Source: a virus
Length of the DNA stretch: 20,013 nucleotides
Reading direction: 5' to 3' (one strand)
Virus record (IMG/VR): IMGVR_UViG_3300034987_000007
Location: 1-20,013 of that record
Shown piece after piece: positions 1,092-7,549 of this stretch. The notes under the pieces were generated by a model. That model searched no databases, had not been told where the DNA came from, and worked only from the letters and a program-made list of their open reading frames with translations. Position 1 is the first letter of the stretch; each line of letters begins with the position of its first letter. The position numbers and the translations under genes were made by a program.

Positions 1092-2030
1092 TTAATCGTC
1101 TGCCAAAGACTTGAAGAAGTCAAGATCGTCATCGTCGTCAGAGGAAGACGAACCAAACGAAGACTCATCAAGAGATGGAGATGGAGCTTCATCCATAGCT
1201 GGAGCTGAACGCTCTTTGAACTTAGGAGTGAAGTCCATCTCCGGGGCATCATCGTCCTCAGCCTTAGTTGTGGGTGCGTGTCGGCTGCCATCAAGGCCTA
1301 GAACTTTGTAAAGCTTCGCTTTCAGTTCATCATAGCTCTTGAAGTTTTTAGGATCGACGATTTCTTGTAGCGAATGCTGGCTGGACCAGATACGCTCAAG
1401 CTCTGCGTCATCATCAAGCAATACACTAGGTGCATCGAAAGATGAAGGTTCGTAAGTGCGATACCCACCATCGCCATTACGTGCTTTGAGTTTGAAGTTT
1501 GCGCCTTCCCAAAAATCGAAAGGATTGATAGGGGTCTCATCTTCGAACTCAGGGTTCATCGCTTGATTTAGCTTGTCAAAGATTTTCTTACCAAACTTAT
1601 ACTTGAAGACTTTGCCTTCGTTCTGAGGATTGGCAGGGTCTTTCACAACATAAATGTTTGCGTGATATGACAGACGGCGCTTCTGCTTACGGGCTTCTTC
1701 TTTACCCGCATCGGTGCCGTTATTCCAGAGTTGAGAGTTATACTCTGAAACTGGATCGTCAAGACCAATAGTAGTGAGAGAGTTTTCGATGTACCAGCCG
1801 CCTGGTCCCTGGAAGCCATGATCAAAGACACGCACGAATGGCAAGTCTTCACCTTGAGGGGCAGGCAAGAATCGGATTACAGCATAGCCGTTACCCGCTT
1901 TGTCTACTTCGAGTTTCCAGTAATCATCGTTGTTTGAAGGTCCACTGTTATCAAGCTTTTGTAGCTGTTGATTCAGTTTGTCGAAGCTAGAGGTACGTTG
2001 CTTCTTAAGTGCGGCAAAAGATGTAGTCAT
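1092..2030 (-). CDS. 32: Single-stranded DNA-binding protein, T4 gp32-like
   Basis: 312 aa. Binds single-stranded DNA cooperatively at the phage replication fork and in recombination and repair. The central OB-fold core carries the T4 gp32 signature around YVVKDPANPQNEGKVF, KYKFGKKIFDK and the later WEGANFKLK. The N-terminus (residues 1-20) is basic and polar, as in the cooperativity domain. The C-terminus is very acidic (DDDDDLDFFKSLADD), as in the gp32 tail that recruits partner proteins. There is no cysteine anywhere, so the T4 zinc site (His plus three Cys) is absent; the corresponding stretch is the GFQGPGGWYIEN region. Start ATG at 2030 has AGGAG seven bases upstream. Genes 33 and 59 lie just upstream in the T4 order. 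A sigma70-type promoter (2076-2104) precedes it, with a late element further up inside gene 59. Confidence 0.95.
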   Translation of the reverse strand: MTTSFAALKKQRTSSFDKLNQQLQKLDNSGPSNNDDYWKLEVDKAGNGYAVIRFLPAPQGEDLPFVRVFDHGFQGPGGWYIENSLTTIGLDDPVSEYNSQLWNNGTDAGKEEARKQKRRLSYHANIYVVKDPANPQNEGKVFKYKFGKKIFDKLNQAMNPEFEDETPINPFDFWEGANFKLKARNGDGGYRTYEPSSFDAPSVLLDDDAELERIWSSQHSLQEIVDPKNFKSYDELKAKLYKVLGLDGSRHAPTTKAEDDDAPEMDFTPKFKERSAPAMDEAPSPSLDESSFGSSSSDDDDDLDFFKSLADD

Positions 2031-2075: not shown

Positions 2076-2104
2076 ATTTTACGATATATTTTTGTATTTG
2101 TCAA
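2076..2104 (-). promoter_or_regulatory. Sigma70-type promoter upstream of gene 32
   Basis: On the minus strand TTGACA (2104-2099) is followed by exactly 17 nt and TAAAAT (2081-2076). It lies in the last codons of gene 59, giving a leader of roughly 40 nt before the gene 32 start. It is one of eight sites in the window with the same 6-17-6 layout. Confidence 0.75.
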
Positions 2105-2684
2105 GTAGGATTCTCTTCATTTTTGGTTTATCATACTGTAAGAAAGGTGAATACTTCCCGACTAATCTATTTATATCAGGAAACACAATGGTGTCAGAAA
2201 TATTTTTCTCCCAATGCTTTAAACAACCAGTCAAGTCACAGAGGATAACCAAAGTCTCAAGACTAACCCTATTCATCATATACAATTTGAGCAAGCGTGG
2301 GTGCTGCCCATCTTCGACAATAAAGTTCTTATTGAACTCATCATCAAGCTCCACTATATCAGATTTGAACTGATATGTCAAGCTCTGTTTGCGCTTTAGC
2401 CAAGAAGAATATATGGCTTCAGCTTTCTCATCTACTAAGTCTCCCGCCCATACGTTTGGGTTCTTCAGCATATTTGCTAAGATGTACTCTTTAGCATCTT
2501 TCTTTTTAGATAGTTTGTAAAAGAAGAACTTGTCTTTGCGGTTTTCGAAAGACATAGCATTCGCTTTTACTTTTCCGTTGTATTTAAAATAGTCGTAACT
2601 ATTTGTGGTGAAGTGGCGCTTCAGCGCAAGATAATAAACGTAAATGTCATAAGCATCTCTAGTGCTGTATAACTGTCCTGTCAT
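2079..2684 (-). CDS. 59: DNA helicase loader, T4 gp59-like
   Basis: 201 aa (T4 gp59 is 217 aa). Loads the replicative helicase onto gp32-covered fork DNA. The N-terminal part contains the pattern ALKRHFTTNSYDYFKYNGKV, which I recognise from T4 gp59, followed by a basic helical region (KLSKKKDAKEYI). The C-terminal half is helical and ends in KPKMKRILLDKYKN. The ATG shares one base with the TAA of gene 33 (TAATG), so translation is probably coupled. Position between 33 and 32 supports the call. Two promoter-like sites lie inside this gene, at 2168-2175 (late type) and 2353-2381 (sigma70 type). Confidence 0.9.
   Translation of the reverse strand: MTGQLYSTRDAYDIYVYYLALKRHFTTNSYDYFKYNGKVKANAMSFENRKDKFFFYKLSKKKDAKEYILANMLKNPNVWAGDLVDEKAEAIYSSWLKRKQSLTYQFKSDIVELDDEFNKNFIVEDGQHPRLLKLYMMNRVSLETLVILCDLTGCLKHWEKNISDTIVFPDINRLVGKYSPFLQYDKPKMKRILLDKYKNIS
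2168..2175 (-). promoter_or_regulatory. T4-type late promoter element inside gene 59
   Basis: Minus-strand TATAAATA, an exact match to the T4 late consensus. Expected start is near 2162, about 130 nt before gene 32. T4 itself has a late start for gene 32 within the upstream gene, which makes this more than a chance match, but eight bases inside an AT-rich codon stretch could still be coincidence. Confidence 0.5.
2353..2381 (-). promoter_or_regulatory. Candidate intragenic sigma70 promoter in gene 59
   Basis: Minus-strand TTGACA (2381-2376), 17 nt, TATAGT (2358-2353). It has the same geometry as the intergenic promoters. It would give an extra transcript for the end of gene 59 and for gene 32. 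No other evidence. Confidence 0.4.
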
Positions 2685-2905
2685 TATACTGGCAACCTCG
2701 CTGTTCGTTCTACCATATTTAGCTCTTCGGCTTCATCATAAATCTTTGATTTCAACACTGGTGAGCGTCTAATAATCTCACCGACTACCTCAATTTCAAC
2801 TTGATTCCTATCTGCATATTCGAGAATAGCATCCATGTACGGAACGCCATTCTCTACCATGCTTTGTATTTCACGCATGATAGTTTCAGTTGTCAATTCT
2901 TTCAT
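2684..2905 (-). CDS. 33: Late transcription co-activator, T4 gp33-like
   Basis: 73 aa (T4 gp33 is 112 aa, so this is a short form). In T4, gp33 bridges host RNA polymerase and the sliding clamp gp45 and is needed for late promoters read with sigma factor gp55. The recognisable core is the helix pattern around YMDAILEYADRNQVEIEVVG followed by EIIRRSPVLKSKIYDEAEELNM. T4 order 33-59-32 is kept. The start overlaps the upstream stop as ATGA, with no clear Shine-Dalgarno sequence, so it is probably translationally coupled. The presence of TATAAATA late promoters in the window fits a working gp33/gp55 system; gp55 is not in the window. Confidence 0.85.
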   Translation of the reverse strand: MKELTTETIMREIQSMVENGVPYMDAILEYADRNQVEIEVVGEIIRRSPVLKSKIYDEAEELNMVERTARLPV

Positions 2906-4024: not shown

Positions 4025-4990
4025 TTAGAATCCAGCGACCATCTCTTGGGTCTTTGCTAGTTCTGGATCGCTCACTAAGCCATATTGTGCTAGTGGACCA
4101 TCTGGACCAGCAATGTCATCTGATACGAAGAATTCGATGTATTCACGCATACCAGGAATAACGTCAAGGTGTGCATTCTTCACATAGAACTGTAGTGGAC
4201 GTGAAATTGGATACTCACCAGAAGCGATTGTTTCAGTGCTTGCTTCAACACCTCTAATCTTGGCTGCATAGATAACGTCTGTGTTGTTCATCAAGAATGA
4301 TAGACCAAACACACCAATGCCACTTTCATTAGATTGCATTGACGCTAATGTTTCTGTGTAGTCACCATCAATGTCAACACTACGTCCATCTCTACGAACT
4401 TCATAACACTTTCTTTCTGCCGCTTTTTTATCAAGCGTTTTATCAAACTCACCTGCCATTTTACAGCCAGCAATCATCACCTTCTTTTCAAACACTTCAC
4501 GTGTGCCGTGTTTAGTGCCTGGTAGAAATACGAGAATGTCTGTGCCTGGTAGACTCGAATCAATCTGACTCCAGTTTGTGTATTCACTGTCTGCTTTAAG
4601 TGCATGATACAAATGCTCTTCAGTCATATCTTCAAAGCCTTTGTTGGTTTGTTGAGCCGCAAATACGATTCCATCATAACCAATGCGAACTTCTGTGAAT
4701 TTACCAATTGCTTCTTCACACATTTTTGCAGTCTCGGGCTTCATAATAGAAGAAGAGTTTGCAATGTCGATTGTGTTTGTGCCAATGCCTTCGCATAGAC
4801 GTTTTTGACCTGCACCTGAGCCACCTGATTCTACAACTGGAGTTGGGAAGTCAAAGTTCTCACCAAATGCTTCGGCAACGATTGATGCATATGGTAGAAC
4901 AGTAGAAGAGCCAGCGATTTGAATATTATCTCTGGCGTATGCTGTTGTAGCAAGCCCCATTGCCGCTACGATTGCTAGAAGTTTTTTCAT
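4025..4990 (-). CDS. pstS: Phosphate-binding periplasmic protein PstS
   Basis: 321 aa. Periplasmic protein that captures phosphate for the host PstCAB ABC transporter. Residues 1-19 are a signal peptide (MKKLLAIVAAMGLATTAYA), cleaved before RDNIQIAG. Phosphate-loop motifs of the family follow: IAGSSTVLPYA near the N-terminus, the glycine-rich GGSGAGQKRLCEG, and IDIANSSSIMK. Length and order fit the family, with no truncation. SD AAGGA lies seven bases before ATG 4990. A possible Pho box and -10 lie upstream (5043-5076), and an identical-sequence hairpin terminator lies on each side. pstS is a known auxiliary gene of marine cyanophages and other ocean phages, where it is thought to raise phosphate supply during infection. 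No transporter subunits are present, so it must work with the host system. Confidence 0.93.
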   Translation of the reverse strand: MKKLLAIVAAMGLATTAYARDNIQIAGSSTVLPYASIVAEAFGENFDFPTPVVESGGSGAGQKRLCEGIGTNTIDIANSSSIMKPETAKMCEEAIGKFTEVRIGYDGIVFAAQQTNKGFEDMTEEHLYHALKADSEYTNWSQIDSSLPGTDILVFLPGTKHGTREVFEKKVMIAGCKMAGEFDKTLDKKAAERKCYEVRRDGRSVDIDGDYTETLASMQSNESGIGVFGLSFLMNNTDVIYAAKIRGVEASTETIASGEYPISRPLQFYVKNAHLDVIPGMREYIEFFVSDDIAGPDGPLAQYGLVSDPELAKTQEMVAGF

Positions 4991-5146: not shown

Positions 5147-5926
5147 TTAGAATTTGAATGAGATGCCAGCCGCTGGCGTGAACTCTTCAGTATCAATGTT
5201 ATACGCACCCTCTGCGTAGTAACCCATACCGTTCACAGCACCGTAGTAACCTGCACCAACATTCTGTAGCATATCGTCTTTGTCACCGTTTAAGAAACCA
5301 GTGATACCAAACGCTGTTACATCGGCTTCAAATCCAAGTGCTTCAGCTTCGACTTGATATGTAGTTGTTACACCAAGACCAATGCCATTGTATGCATAGC
5401 CAGCAGTCGATAGAAGAGTAAACTCTTCTGTGTTTAGGTTGTAGTCAACACCACCACCTACTTCGATACCGCTTGTCGCCATGCTATAAGTGGCTTGAAT
5501 GTTCTCAACATCAGTAATGTCTTCTGAGATATCAGTCAAGCCGATTTGTGTTGATACGCCTGCTACAGCAACACGTAGGCTTTCACCTGCGTCATCAACG
5601 TTAGCAAGAGTAGAGCCACCCACTGCTTCTGTCTTGCCTTCAAAACCATCTAGTATGTCACCTTGATCGCCAAACGCAACAGCAACACCGCTCACTGTTG
5701 TGCCTAGAGAGTAACTATCAACTTCAACAGCACCTTCGTTAGAAGTCAAACCAAGAGATGCTACACCAACTGGCGAACCAAGAGTCACATCAATTGTTGA
5801 CTCTGCAACAATCTTATCAGTTGCACTCTGTGCAAAGTCTAGTCCCACTTCAACACCAATGTCGGCTGCATTTACTGCGCTTGCCATTGCAACTGTGGCT
5901 ACTGTTGCTAAAAGAATCTGTTTCAT
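5147..5926 (-). CDS. Porin-like outer-membrane beta-barrel protein
   Basis: 259 aa. Residues 1-20 are a signal peptide (MKQILLATVATVAMASAVNA), cleaved before ADIGVEVG. The mature protein is low in charge and rich in Gly, Ala, Val and Thr. It has alternating short beta strands and turns (for example GIEVGGGVDYNLNTEEF, GIGLGVTTTYQVEAEAL, MGYYAEGAYNIDTEEF). It ends with AGISFKF, i.e. a C-terminal Phe as in the signal recognised by the BAM machinery. This fits a small outer-membrane barrel. It lies directly after the tmRNA terminator and upstream of pstS, with SD AAGG before ATG 5926. Pairing with pstS suggests a role in solute uptake; alternatives are a receptor-masking or superinfection-exclusion protein. 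The family is not identified further. Confidence 0.75.
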   Translation of the reverse strand: MKQILLATVATVAMASAVNAADIGVEVGLDFAQSATDKIVAESTIDVTLGSPVGVASLGLTSNEGAVEVDSYSLGTTVSGVAVAFGDQGDILDGFEGKTEAVGGSTLANVDDAGESLRVAVAGVSTQIGLTDISEDITDVENIQATYSMATSGIEVGGGVDYNLNTEEFTLLSTAGYAYNGIGLGVTTTYQVEAEALGFEADVTAFGITGFLNGDKDDMLQNVGAGYYGAVNGMGYYAEGAYNIDTEEFTPAAGISFKF

Positions 5927-5952
5927 TATCTCTAACCTTTCCTTGTTCCAAT

Positions 5953-5983
5953 AAAAAAAGGGGCTTCTGTTCCTAGGTGCCCC
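5953..5983 (-). terminator. Terminator of the tmRNA gene
   Basis: Minus-strand GGGGC (5983-5979), 14-nt loop, GCCCC (5964-5960), then seven T. The stem may double as the 3' boundary of the tmRNA coding piece. Confidence 0.8.
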
Positions 5984-5998
5984 TCGAACCCGACAGCA

Positions 5999-6043
5999 TT
6001 ATGCCGCTAGAGCATAACCTGTAGGTGCAAAATTATCGTTTGC
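5999..6043 (-). other. tmRNA tag reading frame (tag ANDNFAPTGYALAA)
   Basis: From resume codon GCA at 6043-6041 to TAA at 6001-5999 the frame encodes A-N-D-N-F-A-P-T-G-Y-A-L-A-A. ANDN at the start is typical of alphaproteobacterial tags, and ALAA at the end matches the tail recognised by ClpXP/ClpAP-type proteases. TTATGC and GCATAA around the last codons can form the hairpin usually found at the tag end. Confidence 0.93.
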
Positions 6044-6127
6044 ATTTAGTTTGTTTGACCGAATAACGTAGGTCAACACGGTAATCTACTCTCTACTATC
6101 CCATCCTGTCGAACCTAATTCACCCCC

Positions 6128-6218
6128 ATCAAAAACGCCCAGTTCTCTCCACACGATCCAGTAGCTACTTCTTTACGTGCTTCATAGAGATTAAGACCCG
6201 GAATCAACTAGGCGCTTA
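6128..6218 (-). other. tmRNA internal transcribed spacer, removed during maturation
   Basis: The stretch between the CCA end of the acceptor piece and the 5' end of the coding piece. Its ends can pair (AAGCGCC, 6217-6211, with GGCGTTT, 6139-6133; seven pairs, one G-U), continuing the acceptor stem as expected for a permuted precursor. It also contains a perfect palindrome AGTAGCTACT at 6160-6169. I found no protein-coding content. Confidence 0.75.
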
Positions 6219-6285
6219 TGGTGGAGGTGGGGGGAATCGCACCCCCGTCCAGAATGTATTCGCTTTGGATCAACGATTACAGGCT

Positions 6286-6316
6286 TATTTATAACATAAG
6301 TTGGTTATTTTGTCAA
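6286..6316 (-). promoter_or_regulatory. Overlapping sigma70 and T4-type late promoter of the tmRNA
   Basis: TTGACA (6316-6311), exactly 17 nt, TATAAA (6293-6288) forms a near-consensus sigma70 promoter. The same -10 is the first six bases of TATAAATA (6293-6286), the T4 late element. Both predict a start near 6280-6281, right at the acceptor-piece strand that pairs with the coding piece, so no leader is left. The stop TGA of the upstream bilin reductase lies inside the -35 box. Confidence 0.8.
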
Positions 6317-7008
6317 GTCTTAATTTCAGGAAATAAACAGTGTTGCACAAATGCATCAACATCATCTTCATTAAGACCGAGAGACTTCATCACACGTGGT
6401 GTGTGAGGGTTTTGTTTTTGAAAATGTGCATAGCGGTTCTGTGCAGAAATCGTTAGTTCGTCTTCTGCGTTACCAAGATAGTGACCGACATGATTAACAT
6501 AGTACGATAGAGATTCGATTGCAGTATGTATCACTTGTTTAATCTCATGCTCTTCCTTGACTGCGCTGGCAGCCATCATATGGTCAGTGAAGATTGCTTG
6601 CGCCCACTCTGGTAGTTGACGTTCACGTTTCCACTGTAGAGGTTCAACAATCTTAGCGAACACATCAATCATTGGATGCTCTTCATTGACTGTTGCAGAG
6701 AAGTCGTGAAACGCACCTGTCATCAGCTTTTTACCTGCTATAACATCGAACCCATATATGGGTGCATCAGACCCAATGTGAGGAAAGATGCAAACGTGCA
6801 TCATCCAAAGACCTTTAGTCTCACGTGCGTCTACTACGTCTACGTGCGCTCTTCGAAATTCGTTTGAAGCCCAGACACGGTTGATCCAACCAGGTTGATT
6901 GAATCGATCCATGCCTTCTTCTTGTATCTCTTCACCATACTCATCAAAGGTTTCGATAAACGCATCTTTGAGTGTTATCAGACTGTCCCAGACTTTACTG
7001 CTTTCCAT
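6313..7008 (-). CDS. pcyX: Ferredoxin-dependent bilin reductase (PcyX/PcyA/PebS family)
   Basis: 231 aa from ATG 7008, chosen because AGGAG lies seven bases upstream; the longer frame to 7074 runs inside heme oxygenase and has no such site. Family members reduce biliverdin to phycobilins with electrons from ferredoxin. Family motifs: FRRAHVDVV near residue 52, then MMHVCIFPH and APIYGFDVIAG, and near the C-terminus QNRYAHFQKQNPHTPRVM. His71 and Asp88 are 17 residues apart, matching the His88/Asp105 spacing of PcyA catalytic residues. Overlaps heme oxygenase by 14 nt. Because the tmRNA points to an alphaproteobacterial host, the best match is PcyX, the reductase described from marine phage metagenomes and reported to make phycoerythrobilin. 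The subfamily is inferred; PebS or PcyA activity is not excluded. Confidence 0.85.
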   Translation of the reverse strand: MESSKVWDSLITLKDAFIETFDEYGEEIQEEGMDRFNQPGWINRVWASNEFRRAHVDVVDARETKGLWMMHVCIFPHIGSDAPIYGFDVIAGKKLMTGAFHDFSATVNEEHPMIDVFAKIVEPLQWKRERQLPEWAQAIFTDHMMAASAVKEEHEIKQVIHTAIESLSYYVNHVGHYLGNAEDELTISAQNRYAHFQKQNPHTPRVMKSLGLNEDDVDAFVQHCLFPEIKT

Positions 7009-7549
7009 TACAAAGCTCCTCAAACAACATGATAGCATATTCAAAGCAGTAGTTTGCTTCTGTAGCCATGTCATCGTTCAACAAGCCACGAAGAGTTTCT
7101 TTCAGTTCTTCTTTATTGTCAAACTGATACATACGACCAGAGCCAGGCACTTTCTTTGCAATCATAGCACCGCCGTACATATCACCAAAGTGGCGCACGT
7201 ACATGTGTGCGATTAGACTGTCAAGATCACCTTTCTTCTGAAGATTCTCTACGTGTGTGACATACATTGATGTGCATCTACAGAGAATATTTGGATCGTA
7301 GACAAAGCCATTCTCTTCTTCAATCTCTTGCATATCTTCACGCATTCGTTCTGCACGAAACACAGACCAGTATTCTTTCGGAAAGCCACAGATTCGTAGA
7401 CTTTCTTCAAGCATTACGTACATGTAATATTGATTGGTTAGATACTTGTAATAAAGAAATTGATCTATATTACCACTCATAAGAATACTTGCAAACTCTT
7501 TGCGTTCTGCTTTCTTATGATTATCCCATGTTAATTCTTTCAAGTTCAT
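6995..7549 (-). CDS. ho1: Heme oxygenase
   Basis: 184 aa, shorter than most bacterial HO1 proteins (about 210-240), as usual for phage forms. Opens heme to biliverdin, iron and CO. The proximal heme ligand is probably His11 in TWDNHKKAERKEF. The distal helix reads AHMYVRHFGDMYGGAMIAKK, with the flexible G122-D-x-x-G126-G127 motif of the family intact. ATG 7549 overlaps the stop of the upstream membrane-protein gene (ATGA), with AAGAGG eight bases before it. The downstream bilin reductase overlaps by 14 nt and would use the biliverdin made here. The pair therefore forms a complete heme-to-bilin route, assuming host ferredoxin supplies electrons. Confidence 0.93.
   Translation of the reverse strand: MNLKELTWDNHKKAERKEFASILMSGNIDQFLYYKYLTNQYYMYVMLEESLRICGFPKEYWSVFRAERMREDMQEIEEENGFVYDPNILCRCTSMYVTHVENLQKKGDLDSLIAHMYVRHFGDMYGGAMIAKKVPGSGRMYQFDNKEELKETLRGLLNDDMATEANYCFEYAIMLFEELCNGKQ

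Follow-up and report, generated by a model that had tools for sequence, protein, structure and literature searches.

The locus examined here raises two questions: whether a phage carries a complete circularly permuted tmRNA, and what such an RNA would do during infection. We analyzed the window, that is, the whole stretch of 20,013 bases, which is an IMG/VR virus record and a ~20-kb genome fragment.

We found that the window contains a permuted tmRNA gene, a rare, split form. In a cmscan of the window, RF04321 (tmRNA_permuted) matched positions 6281-5999(-) over the full model (positions 1-213) with 127.7 bits against a cut-off of 47 (E 4e-25). The alpha_tmRNA model RF01849, a search proposed in the initial annotation, gave a high-scoring, full-length match at 6320-5956(-) that includes the 3' pseudoknot region (model positions 1-355; 110 bits vs 50; E 1.2e-29). 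In addition, ARAGORN made a tmRNA* call with the tag ANDNFAPTGYALAA. Both Rfam models and ARAGORN agree on an acceptor piece, a spacer and a coding piece and on the two-piece, alphaproteobacterial type, as the initial annotation had read them from the letters. Its other structural claims held as well: the acceptor stem formed between the pieces is perfect (GGGGGUG with CACCUCC, 7/7 pairs including G3.U70) and the CCA is encoded. Together with scores above the Rfam cut-off and a tag frame that ends in a stop, these identify the gene as a permuted tmRNA. The ends placed at 6281, 6219 and 6127 were exact, whereas the 3' end, placed at 5953, is near 5956. Chance origin is excluded because of the E-values and the covariation of the two pieces in relatives. 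The elements of the locus are as follows.

6286..6293 (-): TATAAATA, a late promoter motif of the T4 type immediately before the tmRNA (counts in the window and in relatives)
6219..6281 (-): acceptor (tRNA-like 3') piece, with P2 5' strand, T arm, acceptor 3' strand and encoded CCA (RF04321 and RF01849 alignments, ARAGORN)
6275..6280 (-): P2 5' strand GUAAUC; its partner GAUUAC (6086-6081) is in the coding piece (cmscan alignment, composite pairing)
6230..6246 (-): T arm GGGGG-UGCGAUU-CCCCC (cmscan; the T stem covaries in relatives)
6223..6229 (-): acceptor stem 3' strand CACCUCC, with U70 (cmscan; relatives)
6221-6219 (-): encoded CCA (cmscan)
6128..6218 (-): intervening spacer of 91 nt, with a terminal helix of about 12 bp that prolongs the acceptor stem and a structured interior (fold, helix score, ORF scan)
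5956..6127 (-): coding (mRNA-like) piece, with acceptor 5' strand GGGGGUG (6127-6121) and D-loop analogue (RF01849 match reaching 5956)
5999..6043 (-): tag reading frame, with resume codon GCA, ANDNFAPTGYALAA and stop UAA at 6001-5999 (cmscan, ARAGORN)
5951..5991 (-): 3' GGGGC/GCCCC hairpin and GUUC/GAAC pseudoknot (by inspection), then a U run (sequence, alpha_tmRNA alignment)

The 3' hairpin and U run probably mark the 3' end of the coding piece and a putative terminator; the hairpin loop is longer than our terminator scan could take.

The gene had also been described as phage-borne, and its surroundings bear this out. The window is a fragment of a marine T4-like virus, with gp32, gp59 loader, gp33-like coactivator and CobS/CobT-like genes.

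1092-2030 (-): gp32, on the same strand as the tmRNA
2079-2684 (-): gp59 loader
2684-2905 (-): gp33-like late coactivator
4025-4990 (-): PstS-like phosphate-binding protein (from reading the sequence; Pfam gives a PBP domain only)
5147..5926 (-): porin-like exported protein, the downstream neighbor of the tmRNA (from reading the sequence)
6313..7005 (-): PcyX/PcyA-type ferredoxin-dependent bilin reductase, upstream in the transcript (Pfam Fe_bilin_red 7.9e-16, phrog_7278)
6995-7549 (-): heme oxygenase
beyond the heme oxygenase gene (-): zeta-toxin-like kinase, cell-wall hydrolase, CobS and CobT-like proteins

The gp32 protein is nearest to those of marine cyanophages (about 62%), and the PstS-like protein is nearest to those of pelagic Rhodobacteraceae (68-71%). 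The host is probably an alphaproteobacterium, the PstS similarity being the sole clue to it. The porin-like protein had no Pfam or PHROG match and is kept beside the tmRNA in L098 (64% identity, full length). The bilin reductase and heme oxygenase genes (6313-7549) overlap or abut and directly precede the tmRNA.

Neighbor genes of this kind form the hemO-pcyX cassette described in marine phages (PMC11480375). That paper does not mention tmRNA; the link between pcyX and permuted tmRNA is an observation of the present analysis. We searched IMG/VR with the PcyX protein and retained 80 contigs, many of them fragments. Counted in pcyX-bearing contigs alone, 66 of the 80 had an RF04321 match above the cut-off. 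In one batch of 32 relatives, 27 were positive, Melnitz and Mosig among these 27. In 15 contigs, pcyX is followed on the same strand by the tmRNA at a distance of 36-258 nt (32 nt in the window). Two-piece phage tmRNAs, earlier known from a few dozen genomes, are near-constant companions of the marine hemO-pcyX phages.

We used these relatives to ask how the two pieces vary together. RF04321 coordinates located 69 tmRNAs (66 pcyX contigs, Melnitz, Mosig and the window). The acceptor stem was 7/7 in 68 of the 69, a count that starts from unfiltered Rfam hits. Among 27 distinct combinations of T stem and acceptor stem, obtained with a parser that seeks acceptor pairing, standard pairs occupied 98.8% of the cells, 7 of 12 pairs had changes on both sides, and G3.U70 was unchanged in all 27. 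The covariation score for the two stems was 0.506, compared to 0.105 for shuffled and at most 0.097 for slid controls. P2, whose pairing partner was chosen by fitting, was kept out of this score.

We found that the gene has a phage late promoter motif at its 5' end. TATAAATA starts 12 nt before the acceptor piece. The window contains four such sites vs 0.73 in shuffles, and none of 100 shuffles reached four. Among 45 distinct upstream sequences from relatives, 26 carry the motif at a similar distance, in most cases 11-15 nt ahead of the tmRNA (shuffle rate 0.9%); much of the remainder had a variant such as TTTAAATA at that position. A scan for sigma-70 promoters gave no match ahead of the window tmRNA. 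T4 late transcription begins a few bases past the late promoter box. Given this spacing and the position of TATAAATA, transcription should start at the acceptor piece, giving a leaderless RNA. The window tmRNA is thus probably expressed late; late expression may not extend to all relatives. The authors of the Melnitz paper inferred an early promoter for its tmRNA (PMC9004378); Melnitz too has TATAAATA at the corresponding place upstream. A late promoter makes the timing of phage tmRNA expression a testable question.

The tags vary much more than the stems. A tag could be read in 67 of 68 parsed phage genes, and the relatives' tags were diverse, including ANDNFAHGDYALAA, ANDNIAPSGFALAA, ANDNYTPEMRLAA, ANENFALAA and ANDSNYALAA. 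Some subgroups have tags of 23-24 aa, for example ANAFKPEVTVPVSVFADAELVAA, with ends ELVAA or ELLAA, and other tags end in RLAA. The unusually long 23-aa tags, ANAFKPEVTVPVSVFADAELVAA and its variants, belong to a phage clade (L201-L208, L221, L224-L236, L242, L243); no host copy of the 23-aa tag was found in 385 alphaproteobacterial genomes. In the comparison with host tags that the initial annotation had suggested, the 13 tags parsed from the candidate host group were mostly ANDNRAPVA(L/M/V)AA or close to it, and the window tag ANDNFAPTGYALAA was unlike all 13. A host copy with the same tag was rejected, as the exact tag was absent from genome_contigs (one genome each for 84,980 species). 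Phage tags drift away from bacterial tags while the two pieces covary.

This divergence bears on what the RNA is for. The initial annotation had offered two possible functions, freeing of ribosomes or a phage-specific degradation tag. If the phage tmRNA mainly altered the fate of tagged proteins rather than the capacity for rescue, then diverse tags unlike those of hosts, some long with ELVAA or ELLAA ends and some ending in RLAA, would be expected, as would a window tag absent from the genomes scanned. However, most phage tags, including that of the window, begin with AND or ANE and end in ALAA or a close variant. An ALAA-type end is the usual ClpXP signal. The window tag has the usual AND... 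and ...ALAA ends and therefore gives no sign of a changed degron. We consider tag replacement unlikely as the main role and favor ribosome rescue.

Rescue by this RNA would require a source of SmpB. A search of 18 related records, two of them the complete genomes of Melnitz and Mosig, turned up no SmpB, and therefore the phage RNA presumably uses host SmpB. For the window, a 20-kb fragment of its genome, the tmRNA presumably does the same. The lack of a phage SmpB, and a point from the literature (PMC11915505), would also fit a decoy role, in which competition with host tmRNA or SmpB weakens host quality control. A decoy needs no tag, but the window gene retains an intact tag frame with its resume codon and stop, and a tag was read in nearly all parsed relatives; we regard this role as quite improbable. 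Least probable of all is a host-derived passenger or relic without function in infection: large phages do pick up host genes and ssrA fragments occur in prophages (PMC9004378), but the compensatory changes across both pieces in diverged phages, the nearly always intact tag frame, the late promoter fixed at the 5' end and the lack of a closely similar gene in hosts (Rhodobacterales genes differ in tag, T loop and spacer) speak strongly against it.

We parsed 197 distinct viral permuted tmRNAs, requiring a 7-pair acceptor stem; these loci came from pattern and homology searches and are not a random sample. Their spacers had a median length of 71 nt and reached 332 nt, and they added a median of 10 net pairs to the acceptor stem, vs 4 when shuffled (12 in the window). 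Among 142 sampled alphaproteobacterial genomes, 131 have the gene; it is shorter there, with few long matches. Of six long matches fetched, four had spacers of 105-232 nt, one had 44 nt and one could not be parsed. The four long spacers were palindrome-rich or repetitive and had no spacer-filling ORF led by a Shine-Dalgarno (SD) sequence near the CCA.

Some viral spacers are shared between tmRNAs that are otherwise diverged. Identical 62-nt spacers occur in four tmRNAs whose remaining parts are 63-66% identical in the pairs listed. Families of 79-nt and 74-nt spacers (85-92% identity) and a 149-nt family (up to 98% identity) likewise cut across diverged backbones, so that spacers are 85-100% identical within families. 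The backbones that share a spacer are no more alike than random backbone pairs (median 69% identity). Conservation is thus higher in the excised spacer than in the functional RNA, as would fit a swapping of spacers by recombination, perhaps at the shared flanks CCACCATAAACAC and GTGTTTATGATGGGG. The 79-nt family (L214, L239, L394, L397, L411, L423, L461) and the 74-nt family (L109, L241, L388, L395, L472) are non-coding, with conserved interior motifs, and are possibly novel structured RNAs. The members scanned had no Rfam match, and no known ribozyme or riboswitch was found inside the cassette spacers scanned (Rfam, E up to 2).

Other spacers contain protein genes. Counting related spacers separately, 24 of the 53 spacers of at least 105 nt had an SD-led ORF that starts within 40 nt of the CCA and covers at least 60% of the spacer, compared to 0.4 expected from full shuffles and 4.4 (maximum 9) from shuffles that keep the start context. 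In six families of spacer ORFs dN/dS was 0.11-0.30, the values for four of the families coming from one pair each. A 63-aa product matched Pfam DUF6356 above the cut-off (4e-11), two products of 72-75 aa from diverged phages were 42% identical, and a 68-aa product had a weak DUF2061-like match just below the cut-off (1.8e-4). The 68-aa gene is inside the tmRNA spacer in L498, L499 and L502-L505 and outside it in L506-L510 and L512; the L506 copy stops about 9 nt short of a tmRNA match. In L500 and L501 it has spacer-like flanks only, with no tmRNA in the contigs. It is apparently a cassette that moves into and out of tmRNA spacers. L446 and L464 were also grouped among its loci. Several of the tmRNAs with ORF-bearing spacers have T4-like phage genes nearby. 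In L011, L038, L063 and 12 more loci (159/177-nt spacers), there are two coupled mini-ORFs, one of 19-23 aa (acidic) and one of 26-32 aa (hydrophobic); the stop of the latter is the TGA within TTTTGAT just before G1, and its dN/dS is 0.11. Searches with tblastn for four of the spacer proteins found none in named phages, and a literature search of open papers found no description of exchangeable, ORF-bearing tmRNA spacers.

The spacer of the window is structured and apparently non-coding. Its fold has -27.0 kcal/mol (z -2.2), and its helix score was 12 vs a shuffled median of 4. The ORF scan found no SD-led ORF, only an open TTG frame lacking an SD; with no tblastn match for this frame, we rejected a coding function. 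Membership in a spacer family was also rejected: there was no blastn relative among the related loci compared and no exact core in viral contigs. The window spacer is at most a non-coding cassette of the phage spacer class.

On balance, it seems probable that, in marine T4-like phages, permuted tmRNA genes are split and contain a built-in insertion slot. Spacer cassettes would be swapped between diverged tmRNAs, carrying small protein genes or structured RNAs that are co-transcribed and then freed by the cuts that mature the tmRNA; the 91-nt spacer of the window would be a cassette of the RNA kind. Since a normally discarded stretch often codes for a small protein under selection, a single transcript would give both a ribosome-rescue RNA and an mRNA. 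Phages might exchange tiny genes in this way, which could also explain why they keep the permuted form.

Taken as a whole, the window gene is very likely a complete, phage-encoded, circularly permuted tmRNA, expressed late, made of two pieces, rescuing ribosomes with host SmpB and belonging to the cassette-slot spacer class. The sequence, covarying two-piece structure, tag frame, late-promoter motif and phage context are directly supported, and from them we infer the steps of a mechanism. Late in infection, a gp55/gp33-type late transcription machinery would start at TATAAATA (6286-6293). The spacer would fold back and lengthen the acceptor stem, and host tRNA-processing enzymes would release it by cleavage ahead of G1 (6127) and behind the CCA (6219). 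The two pieces, held together by the acceptor stem and P2, would be charged with alanine via G3.U70 and, with host SmpB, would rescue ribosomes stalled on broken mRNA, appending ANDNFAPTGYALAA. The likely benefit would be ribosome recycling late in infection. In this phage class, the spacer would serve as a site for interchangeable inserts, small protein genes among them.

The initial annotation had named a few marine T4-like phages as carriers of two-piece tmRNAs, and the Melnitz and Mosig records and the Melnitz paper contain them. Of the 133 distinct phage tmRNAs counted in that paper, 53 were two-piece, and marine or aquatic phages accounted for 50 of these (PMC9004378); a tmRNA database of 2025 lists only 79 phage tmRNAs of all forms. 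The ssrA of Methylophilales phage Melnitz (MZ577095-8; PMC9004378) is likewise a two-piece, alphaproteobacterial-type tmRNA of a T4-like marine phage with TATAAATA upstream. In contrast to the window gene, it has the tag ANDNYVPVDYALAA and a 142-nt spacer with an ORF (MFKWLSKTRLVVITRDYF..., its product also given as MFKWLSKTRLVV...), and a glutamine riboswitch is just downstream. The window had no such match near the gene at E up to 5; Melnitz itself matches. The Melnitz riboswitch (L002 6189-6237) lies past the end of the tmRNA match and so may act on the gene that follows, and not on the tmRNA as the publication has it. A weaker glutamine riboswitch match lies upstream of the tmRNA in L218. 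The ssrA of Pelagibacter phage Mosig (MT647606) is also a two-piece phage tmRNA, in a phage with pcyX and heme oxygenase genes, but it has the tag GEDNFALAA, a 44-nt spacer and no TATAAATA at its 5' end, and pcyX is far from it. The chromosomal tmRNA of a Rhodobacterales genome (AG-390-A18, L339) is likewise permuted and of the alpha type, with G3.U70 and an AND... tag; it differs in its tag (ANDNRAPVAMAA), T loop (GGCGGUA) and spacer (12 nt, within a range of 12-47 nt over the 13 parsed genes). Compared with these, the window gene looks like a functional member of the known permuted tmRNA family, with a late promoter at its first base and a long, cassette-type spacer as its variant features, and what appears to be new is the spacer architecture of the phage genes.
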